This document shows positions 8,085-56,564 of a DNA stretch of 64,000 nt, piece after piece. Where the stretch lies: assembly GCF_004795855.1 (NCBI RefSeq), contig NZ_CP039252.1:868001-932000 (forward strand), in the 5' to 3' direction. The stretch comes from Hydrogenophaga sp. PAMC20947. GTDB lineage: Bacteria; Pseudomonadota; Gammaproteobacteria; Burkholderiales; Burkholderiaceae_C. The notes beneath the pieces are model-generated. The model ran no database searches. It saw nothing but the letters and a program-made list of their open reading frames with translations, and was not told where the DNA came from. Every line of letters begins with the position of its first letter. Within the stretch, counting starts at the first letter, position 1. Both the position numbers and the translations under genes were made by a program.

Positions 8085-9473
8085 ATGGATGTGAACCTGC
8101 CCTCAGCGGCACCCGGCCACCCGCCTCAAAAACGACAGCCCTTGACGCCGCTCAAGCGCTTTTTGCTGGGTGTCTTCAATCTCAATGACCCTCGGTGGGG
8201 CAAGGACGAAGGTGCAAGTGGTGGTGACAAAGACGACAACGGCGACCGGCGCGGTGAAGGTGCCGAACCGGGTCGCCAGCCACCCCGTGAACAGCGTCCG
8301 CAACAGGGCTCCAACCAGGGCCCGCCCGACCTCGACGAGCTGTGGCGCGACTTCAATCGCAAGCTCGGCGGCATGCTGGGCGGTAAAGGTGGCAAGGGTG
8401 GAGGCCAAGGCAATGGGGGTTCGGGTTTCAACCCCAGTCCCAAGAGCACGGGCATTGGTGCGGGTCTGATCGCTGCCGTGGCGGTGGTGATCTGGTTGGG
8501 CACTGGCTTCTTTATCGTTCAGGAAGGTCAGCAGGCCGTGATCACCCAGTTCGGCAAGTACCGCAGCACTGTGGGCCCAGGTCTCAACTGGCGCCTGCCG
8601 TATCCGGTGCAGCGCCACGAGACCGTGTTCGTGACGCAGATTCGATCGGTCGATGTGGGCCGCGACACCATCGTGCCGGCGACCGGTCTGCGCGATTCGG
8701 CGATGTTGACGGCCGACCAGAATATTGTCGAAATCAAGTTCGCAGTGCAGTACCGCCTCAGCGATGCACGCGCTTTTCTCTTTGAGAGCCGCGATCCCGA
8801 TGCGTCGGTTGTGAAGGTGGCAGAGACTGCGTTGCGCGAGGTGGTCGGCAAGATGACGATGGATGATGCGCTGGTGGGCGAGCGCGATCAGATTGCACCC
8901 CGAGTCCGCGCACTGATGCAAACGATTCTGGATCGCTACAAAGTGGGCATTGATGTGGTGGGCATCAACCTGCAACAAAACGGTGTGAGTCCACCTGAGC
9001 AGGTCAAAGCCGCGTTCGATGATGTGCTCAAGGCAGGTCAAGAACGTGAGCGCGCGAAGAACGAAGCGCAAGCCTATGCCAACGATGTGGTGCCCCGTGC
9101 CCGTGGTGCGGCGTCGCGCTTGACAGAGGAGGCTGAAGGCTATCGGGCAAGGATCGTGGCGCAGTCCGAGGGTGACTCGAGCCGTTTCAGCTCGGTGCTG
9201 ACCGAGTATCAGAAGGCGCCGCAAGTCACCCGTGACCGGATGTACGTGGACACGATGCAGCAGATTTACGGCAACGTGACCAAGGTGATGGTTGACAGCA
9301 AGTCGGGCTCCAATCTGCTGTATCTGCCACTGGACAAGATCATGCAGATGACCGGCCAGACTGCGTCGCCGGCTTCCGGCACCAGCGCCAGCACATCGAG
9401 CAGCACACCCGCTGCAGCGCCGACGCGCTTGCCCGACAACTCCGCCCGCTCGCGTGAACGCGAATCGCGCTGA
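8085..9473 (+). CDS. hflK: HflK, subunit of the HflKC regulator of FtsH
   Basis: 462 residues from the ATG at 8085 (MDVNLPSAAPGHPPQ). A TTG at 8028 in the same frame would add 19 unsupported residues and overlap hflX. A Gly/Asn-rich cytoplasmic segment is followed by one membrane helix around VAVVIWLGTGFFIV and a periplasmic SPFH/band 7 domain beginning EGQQAVITQFGKY. The Ser/Thr/Pro-rich tail is typical. With HflC it forms a cage around FtsH protease. Confidence 0.94.
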   Translation: MDVNLPSAAPGHPPQKRQPLTPLKRFLLGVFNLNDPRWGKDEGASGGDKDDNGDRRGEGAEPGRQPPREQRPQQGSNQGPPDLDELWRDFNRKLGGMLGGKGGKGGGQGNGGSGFNPSPKSTGIGAGLIAAVAVVIWLGTGFFIVQEGQQAVITQFGKYRSTVGPGLNWRLPYPVQRHETVFVTQIRSVDVGRDTIVPATGLRDSAMLTADQNIVEIKFAVQYRLSDARAFLFESRDPDASVVKVAETALREVVGKMTMDDALVGERDQIAPRVRALMQTILDRYKVGIDVVGINLQQNGVSPPEQVKAAFDDVLKAGQERERAKNEAQAYANDVVPRARGAASRLTEEAEGYRARIVAQSEGDSSRFSSVLTEYQKAPQVTRDRMYVDTMQQIYGNVTKVMVDSKSGSNLLYLPLDKIMQMTGQTASPASGTSASTSSSTPAAAPTRLPDNSARSRERESR

Positions 9474-46747: not shown

Positions 46748-47134
46748 ATGTCCAAGCCCCATGCGTCCACGGTCGGTCCGTCGGTCAGTGTTCCAGTCGT
46801 CTCGAATTTTGCCTCAGTCAAGCTGCCTGCCTCGCTGGTGCAGCAGGCGCGGGAGGCTGCGTTGCCTCAGCGCCGCTCTGTGGCCGGCCAGATCGAATAC
46901 TGGGCCACACTCGGCCGCATTGCCGACGAAACTGGACTCACCGTGCAGGAAGCTCGCGAAGCCATCGCACAATTTGATGCCCGTCAACAAGCCGATGAAC
47001 CGTTGGACGAATCGCTGGATGCCATCGAAGCCCGTTTTACCCGTGCCCAGACCAATGGTCGCCTGGTGCAGGCGGTGCGCGATGCGGTGCTGTCCAATCG
47101 CCAAGACGCTTCTGACGCCCGCCGCGCGGCCTGA
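46748..47134 (+). CDS. ParD-like antitoxin
   Basis: 128 residues with AGGAGG upstream of the ATG at 46748. The segment VKLPASLVQQAREAALPQRR to SVAGQIEYWATLGRIADE matches the ParD_like family: a ribbon-helix-helix-type DNA-binding start followed by a helical tail. The C-terminal half (LDAIEARFTRAQTNGRLVQ) is helical and probably wraps the toxin. The zeta-like toxin gene begins about 50 bases downstream. Confidence 0.82.
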   Translation: MSKPHASTVGPSVSVPVVSNFASVKLPASLVQQAREAALPQRRSVAGQIEYWATLGRIADETGLTVQEAREAIAQFDARQQADEPLDESLDAIEARFTRAQTNGRLVQAVRDAVLSNRQDASDARRAA

Positions 47135-47184
47135 GCGAATCTCAAGCAAGACAGCAAACGGCGTTGAAAACGAGGACAGCGAGT

Positions 47185-47802
47185 TTGGCGCAACCCGTGT
47201 TCTATCTGCTCGCCGGGCCCAACGGCGCCGGCAAGTCCACGCTCTACAAGGCGTCCGTCGTCGAGGGCCTGATCCCGCGAAACGCGCCTTTTGTCAATGC
47301 TGATTTGCACGAAGCCGCAGCGCTGCAACACGTCCTGGATCCAGTGGCCCGCTCAAAGGCCGCTCGAACCTGGGCAGACGCTGAGCGCGCCCGCTGCCTG
47401 ACCGCGGGTCGGTCTTTTGCCAGCGAAACCGTTTTCTCTCACACCTCAAAACTCGATCTGATGGCCGCAGCCCAACGCGCAGGCTTTGCCGTGGTTTTGC
47501 TCGTGGTGTGTGTGGATGATCCGAAAATGCTGCTGGGCCGTGTGGCCCAGCGTGTGGAAGAGGGTGGTCACCCGGTGCCACCAGAGCGCATTCTCTCGCG
47601 CTATCCACGCACGGTGCGGCATTTGGGCGTGGCGGTGCGGCGGGCCGATATGGCGCTGCTGTACGACACCTCGGCCCCGCCGGGAGAGGACGTGCAACCG
47701 CCTCGCTTGGTCGCGCGGCTGCGGGCCGGAACCCTGGTGTGGACCAGCGACGCGATGCCGCTGTGGGCCATAGGAATGGTTGCAACGCCCAAGCGGGTCT
47801 GA
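47185..47802 (+). CDS. Zeta-toxin family kinase
   Basis: 205 residues from the TTG at 47185, which has GAGG nine bases upstream; a TTG at 47164 is a weaker alternative. The P-loop is GPNGAGKST near residue 11, with VNADLHEAAAL and FASETVFSHTSK matching zeta-toxin substrate and catalytic blocks. Zeta toxins phosphorylate UDP-N-acetylglucosamine and stop wall synthesis. Its neighbour is ParD-like rather than an epsilon antitoxin. Confidence 0.88.
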   Translation: MAQPVFYLLAGPNGAGKSTLYKASVVEGLIPRNAPFVNADLHEAAALQHVLDPVARSKAARTWADAERARCLTAGRSFASETVFSHTSKLDLMAAAQRAGFAVVLLVVCVDDPKMLLGRVAQRVEEGGHPVPPERILSRYPRTVRHLGVAVRRADMALLYDTSAPPGEDVQPPRLVARLRAGTLVWTSDAMPLWAIGMVATPKRV

Positions 47803-48044
47803 TGCCCCGCTCAAACCGATGGGGTCAACACCGGTTGCCCCATTGACAGAACGACGGCATGATGATTCGCGGGTTCGCAGACCGAGCGCAATGACCACGG
47901 GAAATTTCGGGCGTGGTTCAAGATTCGGCGCGCACCCAATGCGGTGATGGCTAGGCCACCACCTTTGTCATCTTCACGCTGTAGCCGGGCAACCGCTGCG
48001 CGGTCGATGACAAGCCACTGCGGATGCATCAAGGGGAGCAGGTC
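47803..48044. other. Interval between zeta toxin and exported transglutaminase-like gene
   Basis: No supported gene. A reverse-strand frame of 73 codons has no recognised family. It ends in a clear ribosome-binding site (GGGGAG at 48033-48038) for the next gene. Confidence 0.5.
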
Positions 48045-50444
48045 ATGGGAAATTCGCCGTTGTTCAAACAGATAGCCTGTTTGTTCGTTTCGTGGTCACT
48101 GGTGGTCACGCCCGTTTTTGCCGCTTCCGGCAAGCAAGCCGATGCACCCAAAGCCGACCCGAGCAAACCGGACATATCGGCAAAGTCGTCAAACCCGGCA
48201 AGGTCGGCGGACCCGGCAAAGCTCCAACGCAATCTCAACGCTTATTTCGACACCCTGAAGGCCGCAAGGAAAGAGATAGATCGATCCAGTTTCGACCTGG
48301 ATGCCTTGACAGAAAAGCTGGATTTTGATGAGCAGAAGATCATCCAGTTTGTGCAGAAAGAAATTGCCATTGAACTGTACCCGGGCGTATTGCGCGGCGC
48401 CCGGGGCACCCTGATGAGCCGGGCAGGCAACGCACTGGACCAATCTTTGCTGCTGGCAACTCTGCTGAAAAACGCCGGGGCCGATGCGCGCATTTTGCGC
48501 GGTGAATTGAACCCGGAATGGGCGAAAAAACTGGTTGATACCCTCCAGCCCACAAAAGCCGCCGAACTGTCTGCCGGGGAAAGGAGCCGAATCCAGGCGC
48601 ATTTTGTTCGTTTTGCGAAAACCGCGACTGGCAAGGACATGTCTTGGGATGAGTTGCAACAGCTCAACGGGCCACTGGTTCCACTCAAATCGTCGCCCCT
48701 CTTCAAATCCGCCACTAAATCCGCTCAATTTATTCATGACCAGCTAAAGAAGGGTGACATTTCACTTTCTGCAGCCATTGCGCCGGCCGATGCGATGATG
48801 GCTAAAGAAGCGCGTGACTATTTTTGGGTCGAATACCGAAAAGGCCCTGCCGATGCATGGGCCGCGGTACACCCGGTCTTCACCCCTGAGGTCGGCAAGC
48901 TGTTGTCTCTCAAGGCCAGTGAAACGTTCAAAGACTCCATTCCCGAATCGTTGCAGCAAACGTTGGAAATTTCGGTGGCCATTCAGCAACGAATTCAGGG
49001 AAAAATCACCGACAAACCAGTGATGGCTGCCTGGAAGCGGCCTGTTTCCAACTTTTATGGTGAGCCGCTCACGTTCGTCAACATGCCCATCAGCGCGCCC
49101 GCGCCAAATGATCCAGCCAAAACTGGTGACTGGTTCAAAACAGCCACGACATTTGTGCCATCGCTCAATCAAAGCGCTTCGCCAGGCGCTGTGGCCTTTG
49201 ACATGAGCGGGCAAACCGTGTCGCAGGAAGACGCCGCGAGCGCATACGCCGCTGTGATCAAGACCGTTGGCGACAAAGCGAACAAAGCCGCTGGTGCTTT
49301 GGCAGGCATCGGCTCTGCGCCTGCAACCGATGGGAAGCCAGCTGCATCGCGTGCGATGGAGCTTGAGGGGCAAACCCTGAGGTTGAAATTGTCGGCGCCT
49401 GGCCGGCCATCGGTGAGCTACAGCCGAACCATCGCCAACCGCACGGATGGATTTTCCGCAACAGGGCATGTGACCCTCCCCAAGCGAGCGTTCGACGATA
49501 CCGACATGGCGCTTTCCCTGACCAGCCAATACACGATCATGGTGGGAGCCGGCCACGTTCCAGAAAGCTATTTGCTGGATAGGATATTGGAACGGATGCT
49601 CGCTTTTGAGGCAATGATCCGTCAAGTGGCAGCGCCAGATTTTGGCAAGGCGAGTGCTAAACGCAATAATGTTCCGGCCGATTGGTCAGGATTTTTACCG
49701 CTACTTGTTCTGTTGGACAGTTATCCATTGCCAGATAGAGTGATGAGCTTTCGTCCGCAGCCTAGTATTATTTTGCATAACCAGCAATTGAGCACTGACG
49801 GTGGCTTTTTGGAGCGTATCGATATCGTTCGAAATGCCCGTATGGTTCTGGATCGGCAGAATACTGGCTTGCGCACCAGACCCGATCTGAATATGGCTCT
49901 GGGGGTGTGGGATACCTATATGGAACGCCATGCCATCACTGATCGGGTTCCATCGGAGTCTTTTAATGCCATTGATGCATTTGATAAGGCGATGAAAACC
50001 GGTCAAAGGGTTTCTTTAATAGTTGATCAACAGGCTTTGTCCGGATATAAGTCTCAGTTGCCTGCGGCCACTTTGCGCGCAATTCAGAGAGATCTGAATG
50101 ACGGGTATTTGGTTTTTTTGCCTGATCCGGAGTTATCGAAATTTTCTGAAAATATAGCTTGGTGGCGCGTAAATTCCAGAACAGGTGAGGCCATCGGTAT
50201 GGGTGGAGATGGTCGTGGCTCGGAAATTGCTAAGTATTTTACGCTAGCTAATTTTATTGCACTTGGGCTAATTGGTGAGGTTGTCGGGATGTGCATTGGA
50301 GCTGCTCAAAAACAACTTGGCAAGAATAAGGTTCGAAGCTGTATCGGTTTTGGAATAGGAATTGGATCAATTTATCCGCCTCTTGCATTTCCTTTTTGGG
50401 TTGCTGGGGGTGTTCTAGGTCTTGTGGATGTCATTTTCTTCTGA
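48045..50444 (+). CDS. Exported protein with degenerate transglutaminase-like domain
   Basis: 799 residues from ATG 48045, with GGGGAG six bases upstream. A signal peptide (MGNSPLFKQIACLFVSWSLV, cleavage near VFA-AS) leads to an Ala/Lys/Pro-rich linker. The transglutaminase-like core holds YPGVLRGARGTLMSRAGNAL, then DQSLLLATLLKNAGADARIL, and DYFWVEYRKGPADAWAAVHP. By position, the catalytic Cys is Asp, the His is Tyr and the Asp is His. The central region is unrecognised. The C-terminal 60 residues are hydrophobic and probably membrane-inserting. The last about 800 bases are AT-rich. Confidence 0.72.
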   Translation: MGNSPLFKQIACLFVSWSLVVTPVFAASGKQADAPKADPSKPDISAKSSNPARSADPAKLQRNLNAYFDTLKAARKEIDRSSFDLDALTEKLDFDEQKIIQFVQKEIAIELYPGVLRGARGTLMSRAGNALDQSLLLATLLKNAGADARILRGELNPEWAKKLVDTLQPTKAAELSAGERSRIQAHFVRFAKTATGKDMSWDELQQLNGPLVPLKSSPLFKSATKSAQFIHDQLKKGDISLSAAIAPADAMMAKEARDYFWVEYRKGPADAWAAVHPVFTPEVGKLLSLKASETFKDSIPESLQQTLEISVAIQQRIQGKITDKPVMAAWKRPVSNFYGEPLTFVNMPISAPAPNDPAKTGDWFKTATTFVPSLNQSASPGAVAFDMSGQTVSQEDAASAYAAVIKTVGDKANKAAGALAGIGSAPATDGKPAASRAMELEGQTLRLKLSAPGRPSVSYSRTIANRTDGFSATGHVTLPKRAFDDTDMALSLTSQYTIMVGAGHVPESYLLDRILERMLAFEAMIRQVAAPDFGKASAKRNNVPADWSGFLPLLVLLDSYPLPDRVMSFRPQPSIILHNQQLSTDGGFLERIDIVRNARMVLDRQNTGLRTRPDLNMALGVWDTYMERHAITDRVPSESFNAIDAFDKAMKTGQRVSLIVDQQALSGYKSQLPAATLRAIQRDLNDGYLVFLPDPELSKFSENIAWWRVNSRTGEAIGMGGDGRGSEIAKYFTLANFIALGLIGEVVGMCIGAAQKQLGKNKVRSCIGFGIGIGSIYPPLAFPFWVAGGVLGLVDVIFF

Positions 50445-50645
50445 TTATTCTGCTTGTCAGGTTTTGGTGCGGGCTTTGCTTTTTCGCATTGATTTGCAAT
50501 GGATGCTATATATGTAATTTTTCATTATTCATCGTTTGAGAGGATAGATGAATTTTGGTATGTCGGGATCAACCCTCAAAGGGCTTCGATGAGAAGATTT
50601 CTTTCTGAATTGTTATTGCTGTCAGTGTTGGTACTTGTTGCCACG
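49660..50645. other. AT-rich patch spanning the junction of two genes
   Basis: The base composition falls sharply here. The 60 bases from 50221 contain 23 G/C, whereas the 60 bases from 51121 contain 39. The patch covers the 3' end of the transglutaminase-like gene, the 144-base gap and the signal-peptide codons of the VWA gene, then stops. This suggests a recent insertion or replacement. Confidence 0.7.
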
Positions 50646-53600
50646 CACTCATGGGCGCAATCCAGCGTCTACGAAGTCGAGCCCAACAACACCCCCTCAA
50701 CAGCCAACAAAGTATCCGGCGCTGTGCAGCTCATCGGCACCATGGACGCCAGCGATCAGGATGCCTTCGAGTGGAGCGTGTCGGATGTGGATGCGGCCAA
50801 GCGCTGGACCTTTGAGCTGCAGGGGATTCCGGGTGAACTGACCATTGTTGAAGTCATGCGGGTGGAGTACGCCGAGAACGGTGTGGATGTGCGCAGCCGG
50901 CAAAAGCTGTTCACCATGGGCACGCGCGATGGCTCCAAGCCGTCTGTTCACGAAGACCTGTTGTTTGAGCCGGGCGAGTATGTGCTCGGCATTGCCCACA
51001 ACGGCAGCGGGGGCGGCTTCAGGCCGCCGGCGGGCAGCCTCGAATTTGATCGCGCAGCGGCTGGGGGGCAGGCCGCGGCCAAACAACCGCCGGGCGCGTA
51101 CCGGCTGAGCATTCGCGAAGGCGATGCGTTGCGCCTGAAGCAAGGCAGCGAATCGGCAGCCACGCGGGTCAAAGCGCTGAAGATGCGCCCGGGTACCCAG
51201 AGCGCGCTGTTGAGCGATTCGGCCGACTCGTGGTTTCAGGTGGACATGGGCGAAAAAGATGCCCTGCAAAAGTGGGACGTCAGTGGCCAGGTCCCTGTGG
51301 GCCGCAAGGCGAAGGCGACCTTGTTCGCGCCCGACAACACCCCGCTGGCCACTGCCGATGCAGACGGTAAGGGCAAGTTTTCGTTGCCTGACCTCAGCCT
51401 GGGCAAGGGCGCCTATTTCATCGAGATGAAGGCGCCCGAGAGCGGCTTTATCCGAAGCTTGCAGCTCAGCCCCGCTGGCCTGCGCATTGAAGGCGCGGAG
51501 GCCGAGCCCAACGACAAATGGGCCCAGGCCAACCGGGTGATGTTTGCCCAGGCCGTGACCGGGAAGCTGGCGAAGCGGGGTGATATCGATTACTTCCGCT
51601 TTGCGCTCGGCGCACCGGTTGCGGAGCAGATGCTCACGCTGCGGTTGGAAACCGCTGCCGATTCGAAATTGACGCTGTGTTTGACCGACGGCAAAGGGCA
51701 AAAATTGCAGTGCCGGGAGAACACCGGCGTGGTCGAGCTGCCTGACCTGGTGCTCGAAGAAGGCGGCTGGGGCTTCGTTGTGGAGCGCGGCAAGGTTGGC
51801 TCCGTATATTCGGTGGCGCTGGTCGAGCAAGGTGCGATCACCCAGGGCACGGAGGTTGAGCCCAACGACAAGATTGAAAACGCCGCAGCGATTCCGGACA
51901 ACAACCGCACCAAGGGGCGTTTCACGGGGGACGACACCGATTTTTACAAAATTTTGGTGAGCCAGGATCCGCAGCTCTGGCGCATCCAGGTCATCGGTAA
52001 GGAGCTGTCTGAGCTGGCCTATTACGACGGGGCCGGGGCTGAGAAGCAGCGGTACCGGGTACCCAAGGGGCAAAGCCGGGTTCGGCTCGACAACCTTTTT
52101 CTGCTCCCCGGCCTTCATTACATCAGGGTCTCGGGACGCGATGGGGGGCAATACACGCTGCTGGCAAAGCCCATCGGAGCGCCGGACCCCAACGGTGAAC
52201 GGGAACCAAATGACGATGCAAGCCGAATGCATTCGCTGCAATTTGGGCAGACCCGGACTGGGCTGTTGGAGGATTCACAAGATGAAGACAACTACCGGTT
52301 TCACCTCGCTAACGTGGACCGGATTCAACTGACCCTGGAGCCTCCAGCGGATGGTGCGATCACTGCAATGCTGCATTGGAATGGCGGTGTTTTCAAGAAA
52401 TTCAACAAACCAGAAGGGGGCAAGAAGGTCGTGCTCGAGGGCTTGTTTCCTCCAGGCGACTACCGCTTGGCGCTGGCCGCCAAGAAAACCAGTGAAACCG
52501 AATACAAGCTGACACTCAAGCGCTTGCCGCGTTTTGGCTGCCCTGTCGATTGTGAGCCGAACGACAACCTGGACACGGCCAACGCGCTGCCGGCAGACGG
52601 TATTCTGCAAGGGGTGACGCAGGACTGGCTTGACAGCGATTGGTACCGCTTGCCTGTGTTCGATGTGCCGACCACGATCACTTTCACGTCAGAGAAAAAG
52701 CCCGTGATCGAGTTGGTGACGCGTGAAAGCGGGGCGAACCTGTTGGGTTGGGACAATGCGACCAGTCAGTTGAAAGGCACGGTACCGGCGGGGACAGAAG
52801 CGTATGTCTGGATCAGGAGCAACGGCGCCTATCGCATCGCGGTTGATTTCCCATCGAAGCCAAGCGTACTCAAGGCAGTACAGCAGCCACCGGTGGTGAT
52901 GAGTCTCAAACTGGTCACCAACGAAGTAGCGGCATACCGCCTGTATGGGCAGAGGGTGAGTGGCGAACTGAAGTTGAAGAACAGCGGTTCTGCGCCAAGG
53001 CAGGTTCAGCTTGAATCAGCGACCAGCGACGCGCGCTGGACCACGGATGTGGACAAGAAGCGCGTCACGGTTCCAGCCGCAGGGGAGATCACCGTACCGA
53101 TTGCGCTTCGCGTGCCGGCAGATGCCTGGGCAGTCACCCCGGTGCGACTGAGCATTTTGGCGAGCACCGACGACGGCGCTCAGAGCGAAGCGTTCGCTGA
53201 AATTCGGGTGGGGCGCGATTCCGGCGCGGTCAACCCTGTGCAAGCCTGGCGCATTCCGGATGCGTTGCGCGGGGGCTTCAATGTGGCTTGGTCAGGGCTC
53301 GGCGGCCGTTGGCTCGACGGCCTTGACACGGGTGTTGGCAGGGGTTTTGACGAGCTGTTTGACGGGATCGCCGTCAAGGACAAAGGCATGCAGCTGCGCG
53401 GGCAGGCGAAGCGGGAACCTGTCAATGTGGATGTGGCACTTGCGGGAAACGAACCGGTTGCTGTTGCTGGAATCGCCATCAGCGAACTCGCACTTTCGGC
53501 TGCGCCTCAGTTTCTGAAAAATGTCGATTTTTCGGTTTCGCTGGACGGAAAGAACTACACGCCTGCACTCAAAGGCGAATTGCTCCCGATCCTGTCGGAG

Positions 53601-55931
53601 CAGGTGTTTGTGTTGGAGCAGCCGGTGCCCGCGCGTTTTGCTCGATTGACGTTGAAAAATGGGTTTGACGGAAGAGCCGGGTCGGCGTTGAGTTTCGGCG
53701 AGTTCAAGGTGATTGCCACACCTGGGCTGGACATTTCCAATGGCAAAGGCTTCAACCTCGTCGATGCGAGCCGCGGCGGCCATGTCGTTTGGTCGCGCCC
53801 TGGGGCGAAAAACGATGAGTTGTTGAAAGACGATGGCGTATTCGAACGCCAGCGGGTGCGGGAGGGCGAGGCATACGAGGTGGTCATTGGTTTCCACCAT
53901 GACCGGGCCGCGCAGATCACCCGGCTGGAGTGGGTCGACGGGAAAAAGCGCCCTCGGGACCAAAAGATCGAGAGAGTCACGGTCTCTGTCAGCAACGATT
54001 CCCCCATTGGCCCTTGGCAGACCATTGGAGACTGGACGCTGTCACCAAAAAGCGCAGAGTCGGTTCTGGATCTCAAGACCCCGACCTGGGCACGGTTTGT
54101 GAAGTTGTCGGTGGCCGCGCAAAACAAGCAGGTGACGCTGGCACTGGCCGATGCCATTCGCATCTGGGAGCGCCCAACGCAGGAAGGCTATCGATCGATA
54201 CTGGCGGAGTGGGGCGATGCAAGCCAGGCCGCGATTTATGAAGCCTTGCATCCCCTGCAGCTCGCGCCAGACTTTGTCCCCGCTGGCAACGACTCGAAAG
54301 CACGGGCAGCCCAGTTGGGGTTTGACCAACAGGCGGGCGGTCAGGTGTTGCTTGGCAAACACTTGCACTGGTACCGGATCGAGGTGCCAAGAGGCCAAAA
54401 CCTTCTGAGTCTCAAAATCGGTGGAGACCCGACGGTGAGGGCGTCGGTGGCGATTGAGACGGGCGACGGTTCAGCCGTCCCTGTTGTCAAGAACAACGCA
54501 CAAAGCACGCCGCAGTTGCACGTCTTTGAGGCCTTTGTGGAGCCTGGCGGGACCTACTTCCTGAAAGTGGAAGAGCCGCCGCGCAATGTGCTTTTTCTTT
54601 GGGATACGAGCGCCAGCGTTGGTGCGTATTTGCCTGTGATCTATAACGCGATGCTGGGGTACGCGAAAGATGTTGTACCTGGCAAGGATGCCGTCAATCT
54701 GCTGCCCTTTGGTGGTCAATTGCTGAGCAAGGACTGGTATGGGCAGCCGTACATTCTGCAGACCATCCTCAACGACTATCCGCGCAAAGAAAGCTCGAGC
54801 GCAGCCGAGGAGACGCTTGAAAAGGCGTCGAAGGCGCTCGCACCCAGAGCAGGCACCAAGGCGATTGTCATGGTGACCGATGCCGCAACCAGCGCGCACC
54901 CACCGGTCTGGCAGGCGTTTCAAGAGGTACAGCCGCAGATTTTTGCGCTCGGTGTGGGTTCGCAAGGCGCCTGGGGGCGAAACCCGGTGCGAGAGCAAGA
55001 CCTGATGCAGGACTGGTCTCGCGTCAACGGCGGTCACTACAGCTACATGGAAAGCGAAGGTGCGATGGAGATCGCGTTTGATCGCGCCATGACGATGTTG
55101 CGCCGCCCGGCTGCTTACACGCTTGAGGCTGGCACAGCCTATAAAAAACCACTCGGTCCCGGCAAGCTGCGGGTCGCTCGCGGCAGCAAGGATAAAAGCA
55201 GTCAAGCGGCCATTGAGCTGATTCTTGATGCCTCCGGCTCCATGCTCAAACGGCTGGATGGCAAGCGTCGAATGGCCATTGCCAAAGAAGTTTTGACAGA
55301 GGTGGTGAGCAAGCATATTCCACCGGGCACGCCCGTTGCACTTCGGGTCTTCGGGCACAGGCAGGCCAACGCTTGCCGCAGTGATCTTGAGGTGGCATTG
55401 AAGCCTTTGAATTCAGCATCCATGCTGAAGGCGATTCAATCGGTTGAAGCCATGAATCTCGCGAAAACACCGATTGCCGCTTCGCTGGCAGCCGTGGAAT
55501 CCGATCTGAAGGGCGCCAAGGGGCGCAAGATCGTGGTGCTGGTGACAGATGGCGAGGAAACCTGCGAAGGTGACCCGGCAGCGACCGTGCAGAAACTTCG
55601 AGACAAAGGGGTTGATGTCACGCTGAATATCGTCGGATTCGCCATCGACAGCGCTGAGCTGGAGTCGAATTTTCAGAGCTGGGCAAAGCTGGGTGGCGGC
55701 CGGTACTTCCGGGCAAGAGATCAGCGCGGGCTGAGCGCAGCGGTTCAAGACGCTGTCATGGTTCCCTACAGTGTTTACGACCAGGCCGGCACGCTGGTTG
55801 CCACAGGGCTGGTCGGGGGCGAAGCCGTGCTGCTCGAACAGGGTCATTACCGTGTCGTCGTTCAAGGTTCGCCAGCAAAGAGCTATCCAAAAGTTGAGGT
55901 GACCGCCGGAAAAGAGTTGCTGTTGGATTGA
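50589..55931 (+). CDS. Giant exported VWA protein with EPN repeats and discoidin-like regions
   Basis: 1780 residues from ATG 50589 (MRRFLSELLLLSVLVLVATH, cleavage near SWA-QS); an upstream in-frame ATG at 50499 gives no signal peptide. Pre-peptidase-like blocks start with EPN motifs near residues 31, 304, 421, 537 and 654; the last four are 116-117 residues apart. Two discoidin-like regions lie at about 975-1040 and 1060-1190. VWA 1 has MIDAS DTSAS near 1337. VWA 2 has DASGS near 1547, a Thr in AKTPIA and an Asp in TDGEE. Function unknown; probably an adhesin or envelope scaffold. Confidence 0.8.
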   Translation: MRRFLSELLLLSVLVLVATHSWAQSSVYEVEPNNTPSTANKVSGAVQLIGTMDASDQDAFEWSVSDVDAAKRWTFELQGIPGELTIVEVMRVEYAENGVDVRSRQKLFTMGTRDGSKPSVHEDLLFEPGEYVLGIAHNGSGGGFRPPAGSLEFDRAAAGGQAAAKQPPGAYRLSIREGDALRLKQGSESAATRVKALKMRPGTQSALLSDSADSWFQVDMGEKDALQKWDVSGQVPVGRKAKATLFAPDNTPLATADADGKGKFSLPDLSLGKGAYFIEMKAPESGFIRSLQLSPAGLRIEGAEAEPNDKWAQANRVMFAQAVTGKLAKRGDIDYFRFALGAPVAEQMLTLRLETAADSKLTLCLTDGKGQKLQCRENTGVVELPDLVLEEGGWGFVVERGKVGSVYSVALVEQGAITQGTEVEPNDKIENAAAIPDNNRTKGRFTGDDTDFYKILVSQDPQLWRIQVIGKELSELAYYDGAGAEKQRYRVPKGQSRVRLDNLFLLPGLHYIRVSGRDGGQYTLLAKPIGAPDPNGEREPNDDASRMHSLQFGQTRTGLLEDSQDEDNYRFHLANVDRIQLTLEPPADGAITAMLHWNGGVFKKFNKPEGGKKVVLEGLFPPGDYRLALAAKKTSETEYKLTLKRLPRFGCPVDCEPNDNLDTANALPADGILQGVTQDWLDSDWYRLPVFDVPTTITFTSEKKPVIELVTRESGANLLGWDNATSQLKGTVPAGTEAYVWIRSNGAYRIAVDFPSKPSVLKAVQQPPVVMSLKLVTNEVAAYRLYGQRVSGELKLKNSGSAPRQVQLESATSDARWTTDVDKKRVTVPAAGEITVPIALRVPADAWAVTPVRLSILASTDDGAQSEAFAEIRVGRDSGAVNPVQAWRIPDALRGGFNVAWSGLGGRWLDGLDTGVGRGFDELFDGIAVKDKGMQLRGQAKREPVNVDVALAGNEPVAVAGIAISELALSAAPQFLKNVDFSVSLDGKNYTPALKGELLPILSEQVFVLEQPVPARFARLTLKNGFDGRAGSALSFGEFKVIATPGLDISNGKGFNLVDASRGGHVVWSRPGAKNDELLKDDGVFERQRVREGEAYEVVIGFHHDRAAQITRLEWVDGKKRPRDQKIERVTVSVSNDSPIGPWQTIGDWTLSPKSAESVLDLKTPTWARFVKLSVAAQNKQVTLALADAIRIWERPTQEGYRSILAEWGDASQAAIYEALHPLQLAPDFVPAGNDSKARAAQLGFDQQAGGQVLLGKHLHWYRIEVPRGQNLLSLKIGGDPTVRASVAIETGDGSAVPVVKNNAQSTPQLHVFEAFVEPGGTYFLKVEEPPRNVLFLWDTSASVGAYLPVIYNAMLGYAKDVVPGKDAVNLLPFGGQLLSKDWYGQPYILQTILNDYPRKESSSAAEETLEKASKALAPRAGTKAIVMVTDAATSAHPPVWQAFQEVQPQIFALGVGSQGAWGRNPVREQDLMQDWSRVNGGHYSYMESEGAMEIAFDRAMTMLRRPAAYTLEAGTAYKKPLGPGKLRVARGSKDKSSQAAIELILDASGSMLKRLDGKRRMAIAKEVLTEVVSKHIPPGTPVALRVFGHRQANACRSDLEVALKPLNSASMLKAIQSVEAMNLAKTPIAASLAAVESDLKGAKGRKIVVLVTDGEETCEGDPAATVQKLRDKGVDVTLNIVGFAIDSAELESNFQSWAKLGGGRYFRARDQRGLSAAVQDAVMVPYSVYDQAGTLVATGLVGGEAVLLEQGHYRVVVQGSPAKSYPKVEVTAGKELLLD

Positions 55932-56252
55932 CCCGGTGACCGTGCGATGAGGCCTTTCACGCACGCTGTTGGAACGGGGTGGCTACCTGGCAAGTCGACT
56001 CCTTGGCTGCCTGGGCACCAGGGAGTTTGAGCCCTGACGCACCAGCATCGCGCCACATGAGTCCTCGACGCCTGATCGTTGAATCGATGCCCCTGGCGGG
56101 GTTTTCGGTGGCGCAGGACGCGGGGACGCTGGGTCCGGTCCGCTGTATGTGATGCAAAGGTTCTCGTATTTCGCCCGTTTGTCCATGCGCTCTGGTTCAG
56201 GGTGTACCGCTATCGAAAAAGCAGGTATGCTGCAGTGCAACATGGAGCGGAT
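55932..56252. other. 321-base interval after the VWA gene
   Basis: No supported gene. An open frame upstream of 56253 lacks homology. Composition is back to GC-rich. No T-tract terminator is visible. Confidence 0.5.
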
Positions 56253-56564
56253 ATGAACAACCCGTGGCAAATTGACGATCTGCTGGCCGGCCTGTACGAC
56301 GCCCGCAAACGCGGCGACCTGGGTCGCCTCGCTTTCCTTGCGTACTGCGATGTGCGCCGCTGGGCGCGCGAGGAGGGCCGTCAGGGCCTTGCGGAACTGG
56401 CGGCAGGCCTCGTGACCCAAAGCCCACACCTGAGCCGGGAAGTCTTTCTGGATCAGATCGACCTGCTGGTGAAGCAACTCGAGTCGTTGCAGCGCGCCAG
56501 CGAAGCCAGCGGTTCCGGGCCAGCGCCTGCGGCTCTATGGCTGGGCAATCCCCAATTGGCTTGA
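56253..56564 (+). CDS. Small hypothetical protein
   Basis: 103 residues from ATG 56253 with GGAGCGG upstream. The sequence is all-helical and soluble: MNNPWQIDDLLAGLYDARKR, with charged helices through REEGRQGLAELAAGL and REVFLDQIDLLVKQLE. I do not recognise the family. A good ribosome-binding site and amphipathic helices support it being real. Confidence 0.65.
   Translation: MNNPWQIDDLLAGLYDARKRGDLGRLAFLAYCDVRRWAREEGRQGLAELAAGLVTQSPHLSREVFLDQIDLLVKQLESLQRASEASGSGPAPAALWLGNPQLA

Follow-up and report, generated by a model that had tools for sequence, protein, structure and literature searches.

A pseudo-transglutaminase gene paired with a giant dual-VWA gene in Hydrogenophaga sp. PAMC20947: a possible mobile two-gene envelope module

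The window analysed here is a stretch of 64,000 nucleotides from Hydrogenophaga sp. PAMC20947 (RefSeq assembly GCF_004795855.1, contig NZ_CP039252.1, positions 868,001–932,000 of the forward strand), and coordinates are counted from its first letter. Two adjacent, co-directional genes for exported proteins had been predicted in it, and both open reading frames are present, intact and separated by 144 bp. The first encodes a pseudo-transglutaminase (TG), single-copy in this 4.85-Mb, one-contig genome, and the second a giant protein with two VWA domains (the VWA protein). Mechanically called reading frames start at 48024 (TG) and 50499 (VWA); the ATG codons at 48045 and 50589 were preferred as start codons, since both follow a purine-rich stretch and open a signal-peptide-like sequence. 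The features of the locus are as follows.

47770–56223, no strand: probable insertion bearing the TG–VWA pair
48045–50444, + strand: TG gene, pseudo-transglutaminase, predicted to be exported, 799 residues
48045–48125, + strand: signal-peptide-like N-terminus of TG, about 27 residues
48318–48569, + strand: most conserved part of TG, residues 92–175, with the former Cys loop (Ala130)
48819–48872, + strand: former His and Asp positions of TG, now Tyr259 and His276
50235–50441, + strand: C-terminal tail of TG, hydrophobic and Gly-rich, with Cys750 and Cys766 (hydrophobic segments 731–755 and 776–799)
50445–50588, + strand: TG–VWA intergenic gap
50589–55931, + strand: VWA gene, giant protein, predicted to be exported, 1780 residues
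50661–52898, + strand: N-terminal EPN region of the VWA protein, motifs at residues 31, 306, 424, 539 and 656
52911–53258, + strand: Ig-like stretch of the VWA protein
53457–54107, + strand: two discoidin-like (F5/8 type C) regions, Pfam residues 957–1024 and 1124–1173
54585–55118, + strand: first VWA domain, MIDAS residues Asp1339, Ser1341 and Ser1343
55206–55754, + strand: second VWA domain, MIDAS motif DASGS at 1547, Thr1627 and Asp1654

The gap contains no terminator-like site on the + strand, in a scan that as a whole was no richer in such sites than shuffled sequence, and co-transcription of the two genes is a plausible candidate arrangement.

Both proteins look exported by their hydrophobic, signal-peptide-like N-termini, a call that for TG rests on composition (hydrophobic segment 6–29), with the cleavage site placed by eye. 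Pfam Transglut_core was matched at E ≤ 0.1 by all eight TG family members scanned (best E 4.3e-6); the match of the window protein is weak, at E 0.0076 and under Pfam's gathering score. NCBIfam gave no match for the window protein and one weak, unrelated name for one of the eight members, and no PDB sequence matched TG. The triad columns were placed by alignment with relatives retaining His and Asp, together with the transglutaminase motif. In the window protein the catalytic Cys-His-Asp triad is replaced by Ala130, Tyr259 and His276, bearing out the prediction of a transglutaminase-like fold without its catalytic residues. Each of the eight aligned members has Ala, Ser or Thr at position 130 and none has Cys, and Tyr and His replace His and Asp in seven of the eight, the protein of locus L043 retaining both; the TG of locus L137 also has Tyr and His here. 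Residues 92–175, around the former Cys loop, show a mean pairwise identity of 47.6%, against 23–30% in the four other segments (seven loci). Outside the tail, the eight members have cysteines only in the N-terminal signal region, plus two residues in the L044 protein.

An AlphaFold2 model of TG, built from an alignment of seven sequences, has a mean pLDDT of 72.0 and a pTM of 0.77, with a confident core; pLDDT falls below 50 at residues 703–773 of the modelled chain, so no fold is claimed for the tail. A Foldseek search of the PDB with this model gave 161 matches at E ≤ 10, of which none reached E ≤ 0.001. Among the best 50 of the 161, three axonemal chains come first (E 0.02–0.034), followed in fourth place by 4u65_E from a LapD-ortholog complex (E 0.22, TM 0.51 by target), which from its length is probably the LapG chain; LapG itself (4fgo) was matched at E 2.5 with a TM of 0.51.

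The EPN repeats, discoidin-like regions and two MIDAS-bearing VWA domains proposed for the second protein were all recovered. Five EPN motifs were counted, and matches to PDB sequences were two and weak, collagenase 5iku aligning with residues 421–641 at E 3.1e-5. The Ig-like stretch corresponds to a FixG_C match (0.0011) and there is a PPC match (0.0032), both below cut-off. The discoidin-like regions are matched in two stretches (E 3.6e-7), and F5_F8_type_C was found in all eight members. The first VWA domain is unreported by Pfam and was recognized by its DxSxS motif, present in nine of nine aligned proteins and in that of L137, and by Foldseek; by eye, its MIDAS has Ser where Thr is expected. 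The second is matched by Pfam VWA at 1.2e-14, and DASGS, TPIA and TDG are conserved in 8/8 aligned proteins that reach the domain, the L044 copy being excluded from this count as it is cut by a contig end. NCBIfam contributed one sub-threshold VWA model. A model of the C-terminal half (eight sequences; mean pLDDT 72.9, pTM 0.36) has an unreliable domain arrangement; its best PDB match by Foldseek is the dual-VWA mussel byssus protein PTMP1 (4cnb_A, E 4.8e-14, with low TM and high r.m.s.d. across the whole alignment), followed by factor VIII/V, CBM32 and inter-alpha-inhibitor chains. The scans made of the VWA protein revealed no outer-membrane export signal of a known type.

Homologs of the two genes are not usually found apart. 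A TG gene neighbors the VWA gene in all nine loci that carry a full-type VWA protein, namely the window, L043–L048, L073 (in genome G922) and L137 (in genome G1326). Searches with the VWA protein turned up loci with near full-length relatives, one among plasmids and five among scanned genome contigs; TG adjoins VWA in all six (the VWA gene of L044 runs off its contig). The pairs of L073 and L137 came from TG-profile searches. The arrangement varies: TG precedes VWA on the same strand in six loci (the window, L043, L044, L046, L073 and L137), with a 4 bp overlap of the mechanical reading frames in L043 and a 3.1-kb gap in L046; VWA precedes TG in L048, the mechanical frames lying 2 bp apart; the genes are tail to tail in L047; and in L045 (847–15367) two VWA copies flank one TG, which lies on the opposite strand. 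A second TG of G1326 (L138) starts at a contig edge and has no VWA within 7 kb on its other side. By rough arithmetic, the chance that an unrelated gene falls no more than 3.1 kb from a particular gene is about 0.2% in a 4-Mb genome, so adjacency in 9/9 loci is not attributable to chance. No third gene is shared among the eight loci compared, and there is thus no shared immunity gene. The carriers include Indioceanicola (an alphaproteobacterium), Alcaligenes endophyticus and bins named Methylomonas, Thioalkalivibrio and Proteobacteria; one further sequence is a 7.5-kb contig binned as Acidobacteriota, a putative host assignment.

Two genes were seen beside the pair in particular loci. One, of 422/432 residues (66% identity), lies upstream of TG in L073 (1884–3152) and L137 (9235–10533) only; its L073 copy has no Pfam match, and L046 has a candidate relative below significance (E 0.11). 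The other encodes a trypsin-like peptidase and was seen in L046 only (8369–9313), where it separates TG from VWA and runs on the opposite strand.

The pair is rare. Full-length TG was found in 1/274 genomes of the class sample, 1/250 of the family, 1/60 of the genus and 1/398 of the phylum, the single positive in each of these overlapping samples being the window's own genome, and in 2/399 genomes of the order and 2/74 of the family of G922; other TG matches in these samples were short. These counts are lower bounds, since scoring in the larger samples was confined to the best few candidates per genome and the class and family searches used a single query sequence. The flanking CoA-transferase gene is present in 54 of 60 same-genus genomes. 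In all seven of those loci that were fetched, blastn detected no DNA matching window positions 47770–56223, and no TG or VWA relative was found. In two of them (L120 and L121) the alignments of the zeta-toxin gene and the CoA-transferase gene end about 0.1 kb from each other; L117 also lacks the zeta gene. TG has a G+C content of 52% (GC3 0.55) and VWA of 60% (0.70), the remaining window being at 62%; the pair is therefore, on these sequence comparisons, a probable AT-richer insertion.

Directly upstream of the pair lie a ParD-like antitoxin gene and a zeta-toxin-like gene (46748–47802), in a region whose DNA is matched in six of the seven same-genus loci fetched. To the right of the insertion is a small gene with no Pfam match (56136–56564). 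L116 carries a relative of this small gene within the same interval, along with other genes, which makes the interval a possible hot spot for gene gain.

Neither a phage nor a plasmid origin was borne out: in viral contigs, 74 and 13 pattern matches were obtained, among which no VWA or TG relative was confirmed, and the plasmid collection gave no TG match and 88 records matching VWA, none covering 80% (the best is a 1.18-Mb Indioceanicola replicon). The plasmid search with TG misses distant members, as the TG of L043 lies in that same collection. PADLOC gave no match.

The two genes differ in their rates of change. Across the window, L044–L047 and L073, identities are 37–60% for VWA and 26–33% for TG. 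In the close pair L073/L137 identity is 80% for TG and 93% for VWA, with dN of 0.119 and 0.037 (about threefold higher in TG), dS of 0.456 and 0.173 and dN/dS of 0.26 and 0.21; on this one pair, both genes are under purifying selection, and the TG ratio argues against a decaying gene. Either codon bias or separate exchange could account for the difference in dS. TG is AT-richer than VWA in eight of nine loci, L047 being the exception and the difference in L043 being small. TG distances correlate only weakly with VWA distances (Mantel r 0.49, p 0.146, seven loci), and the rank correlation of identities is 0.79 over all eight loci, 0.59 without L043 and −0.08 without L043 and L048. The VWA topology is rejected by the TG data (p-AU 0.010 with eight loci and 0.0004 with seven); these reject a clade of L046, L073 and L047 (0.015) but do not reject L046 with L073 (0.445), on a TG tree that is star-like with low supports. 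Rapid change of TG is clear from these comparisons, and exchange of TG alleles is suggested.

Such partial discordance, together with the differing base composition and the insertion in the window, would fit two independent accessory surface genes that do not interact and travel together by the chance of mobility. We consider this improbable: adjacency is kept despite varied order and orientation, to the point of overlapping by 4 bp or lying 2 bp apart, in loci that share nothing else.

Relatives of the TG core occur in much larger proteins. Four giant open reading frames with a TG-matching core all contain Transglut_core and DUF6531, and three contain RHS_repeat, the fourth being cut by the end of the fetched stretch. 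Loss of the catalytic residues holds for TG, and a missing Cys is common to the related domains scored. Among 41 distinct related sequences, 31 fit a strict motif (10 were unscored), and the Cys position is occupied by Ala in 14, Asp in 6, Ser in 5, Pro in 5 and Thr in 1, and by Cys in none. As an observation on the four RHS-type loci with a TG-like domain, each has a squalene-cyclase/prenyltransferase-toroid-like protein, fused in L075 and nearby in L076, L077 and L078.

In the family of genome G615, a TG-profile match was found in 11 of 64 genomes, and in eight of those 11 three ordered TG-profile stretches lie in one open frame of 2390–2574 residues. Four giants (L074, L139, L140 and L141) cover TG profile positions 72 to 707–752 in three ordered stretches, and those of L074, L139 and L141 keep the triad His. 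These four have a TG-like front and an Ig-type tail, and one giant of the family is matched by Pfam FixG_C, Transglut_core, LVIVD and two sub-threshold names. No VWA relative lies on the four stretches fetched. Judged from these profile matches, the TG module is also found fused to long extracellular-type chains; in these giants it forms part of one chain, whereas in the pair TG and the long chain are two proteins. The VWA protein has partial relatives of its own: two proteins of about 1130 residues (L079 and L080) are homologous to VWA profile positions 903/905–1792, resembling its C-terminal half and lacking the EPN-rich front half, and no TG relative was found on the 14.8 and 20 kb fetched around them.

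Inactive transglutaminase domains behind a signal peptide are known from RHS polymorphic toxins, and passages of the paper describing them propose that they anchor the toxin at the surface via peptide binding (Zhang et al., 2012; PMC3482391). As far as those passages go, TG resembles these domains in placing a transglutaminase fold that has lost triad residues behind a signal peptide (predicted in TG), and its core sequence is related to theirs. Unlike RHS toxins, TG has no RHS match in any of the eight members (Pfam); it stands as a protein of its own, with a distinct C-terminal half and a conserved VWA neighbor. Pfam and NCBIfam matched no toxin family at its unclassified tail. The system had been put forward as possibly undescribed, and this stands for the pair, of which no description was found in the open-licence papers searched; it does not stand for inactive transglutaminase domains as such, which were already known from the RHS toxins (passages of PMC3482391).

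The kinship with RHS proteins raises the alternative of a contact-dependent conflict module, in which TG would be an effector whose tail acts on the target membrane and the VWA protein its recognition or display part. The faster divergence of TG, its AT-richness in eight of nine loci and the mobility and rarity of the pair would all suit such a role. We nevertheless hold it to be quite unlikely, given the lack of a toxin domain by Pfam or NCBIfam and of an immunity gene shared among the eight loci, and the purifying selection on TG in L073/L137.

A known envelope-linked inactive transglutaminase has seven hydrophobic segments. TG, predicted to be envelope-linked, is likewise inactive, but it lacks a run of seven such segments and matches no family of that kind at E ≤ 1. 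Clusters of VWA and transglutaminase genes linked to MoxR also exist; no MoxR match was found among ten neighbors in the window.

A further likeness is to the Lap system, in which a transglutaminase-like protein is linked to a giant adhesin; the LapG-linked adhesins LapA/ArtA carry VWA domains, according to portions of PMC9430717, and the fold match to TG is weak. In a reading along these lines, TG would regulate or shield a protease-cleaved adhesin, as LapG/LapD do for LapA, and would do so as a decoy since it cannot cleave. The LapG-chain matches and the shared VWA domains are in its favor. Against it, LapG is an active cysteine protease and TG has lost the triad, including the catalytic Cys; Lap adhesins have RTX repeats and type 1 secretion, and Pfam scans gave neither an RTX match in the VWA protein nor a match to Peptidase_C93; and no secretion genes, LapD-type receptor or GGDEF or EAL protein were found among the ten window neighbors scanned. 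It appears unlikely, slightly more so than the other two alternatives.

We tentatively prefer, at somewhat short of an even chance, a mobile two-gene envelope module in which TG is a pseudo-enzyme that docks the VWA adhesin and holds it at the envelope. The VWA protein would be an extended adhesin; its two VWA domains and its discoidin-like domains would bind ligands, probably with metal, on matrix or on other cells. TG would retain the cleft of a transglutaminase-like fold, minus its chemistry, as a binding site for a peptide from the VWA protein (or from the envelope), and its hydrophobic, Cys-bearing tail would sit in a membrane; TG could thereby dock the adhesin and hold it at the cell surface. 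The TG–VWA interaction, peptide binding by the cleft, the membrane role of the tail and metal-dependent adhesion are steps that we infer. Docking is favored by linkage in nine of nine loci in several arrangements with no other gene shared among the eight compared. A re-used rather than decaying cleft is indicated by the conservation of residues 92–175, the same triad replacements in seven of eight members and the dN/dS of 0.26 in the close pair L073/L137. Docking is also favored by related modules that front giant proteins in cis (RHS proteins, and chains of 2390–2574 residues in eight of 64 genomes), by the surface anchoring proposed for the RHS case in the passages cited (PMC3482391), by the weak LapG fold matches and by the resemblance of the VWA half to PTMP1 and discoidin proteins. 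It is weakened by TG fold matches that all lie above E 0.001, the best three being axonemal, by the unreliable tail model and by the absence, in the scans made, of a known outer-membrane export signal from the VWA protein; and the weak distance correlation and the rejection of the VWA tree by TG are unlike what tight co-evolution predicts.

A more elaborate proposal, which we regard as unlikely, is a new class of two-part contact device for mobile cell recognition, in which the pseudo-transglutaminase, a relative of the leader module of giant surface proteins, would display a separate, giant, metal-dependent adhesin in trans, and fast-changing or exchanged TG alleles would operate under a conserved VWA scaffold.

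Inactive transglutaminase domains front many giant bacterial surface proteins, where their role is put forward as a suggestion (passages of PMC3482391). Occurring as a separate protein with one conserved partner, TG makes the anchoring suggestion directly testable, and the pair would add an undescribed, transferable adhesion or contact module.
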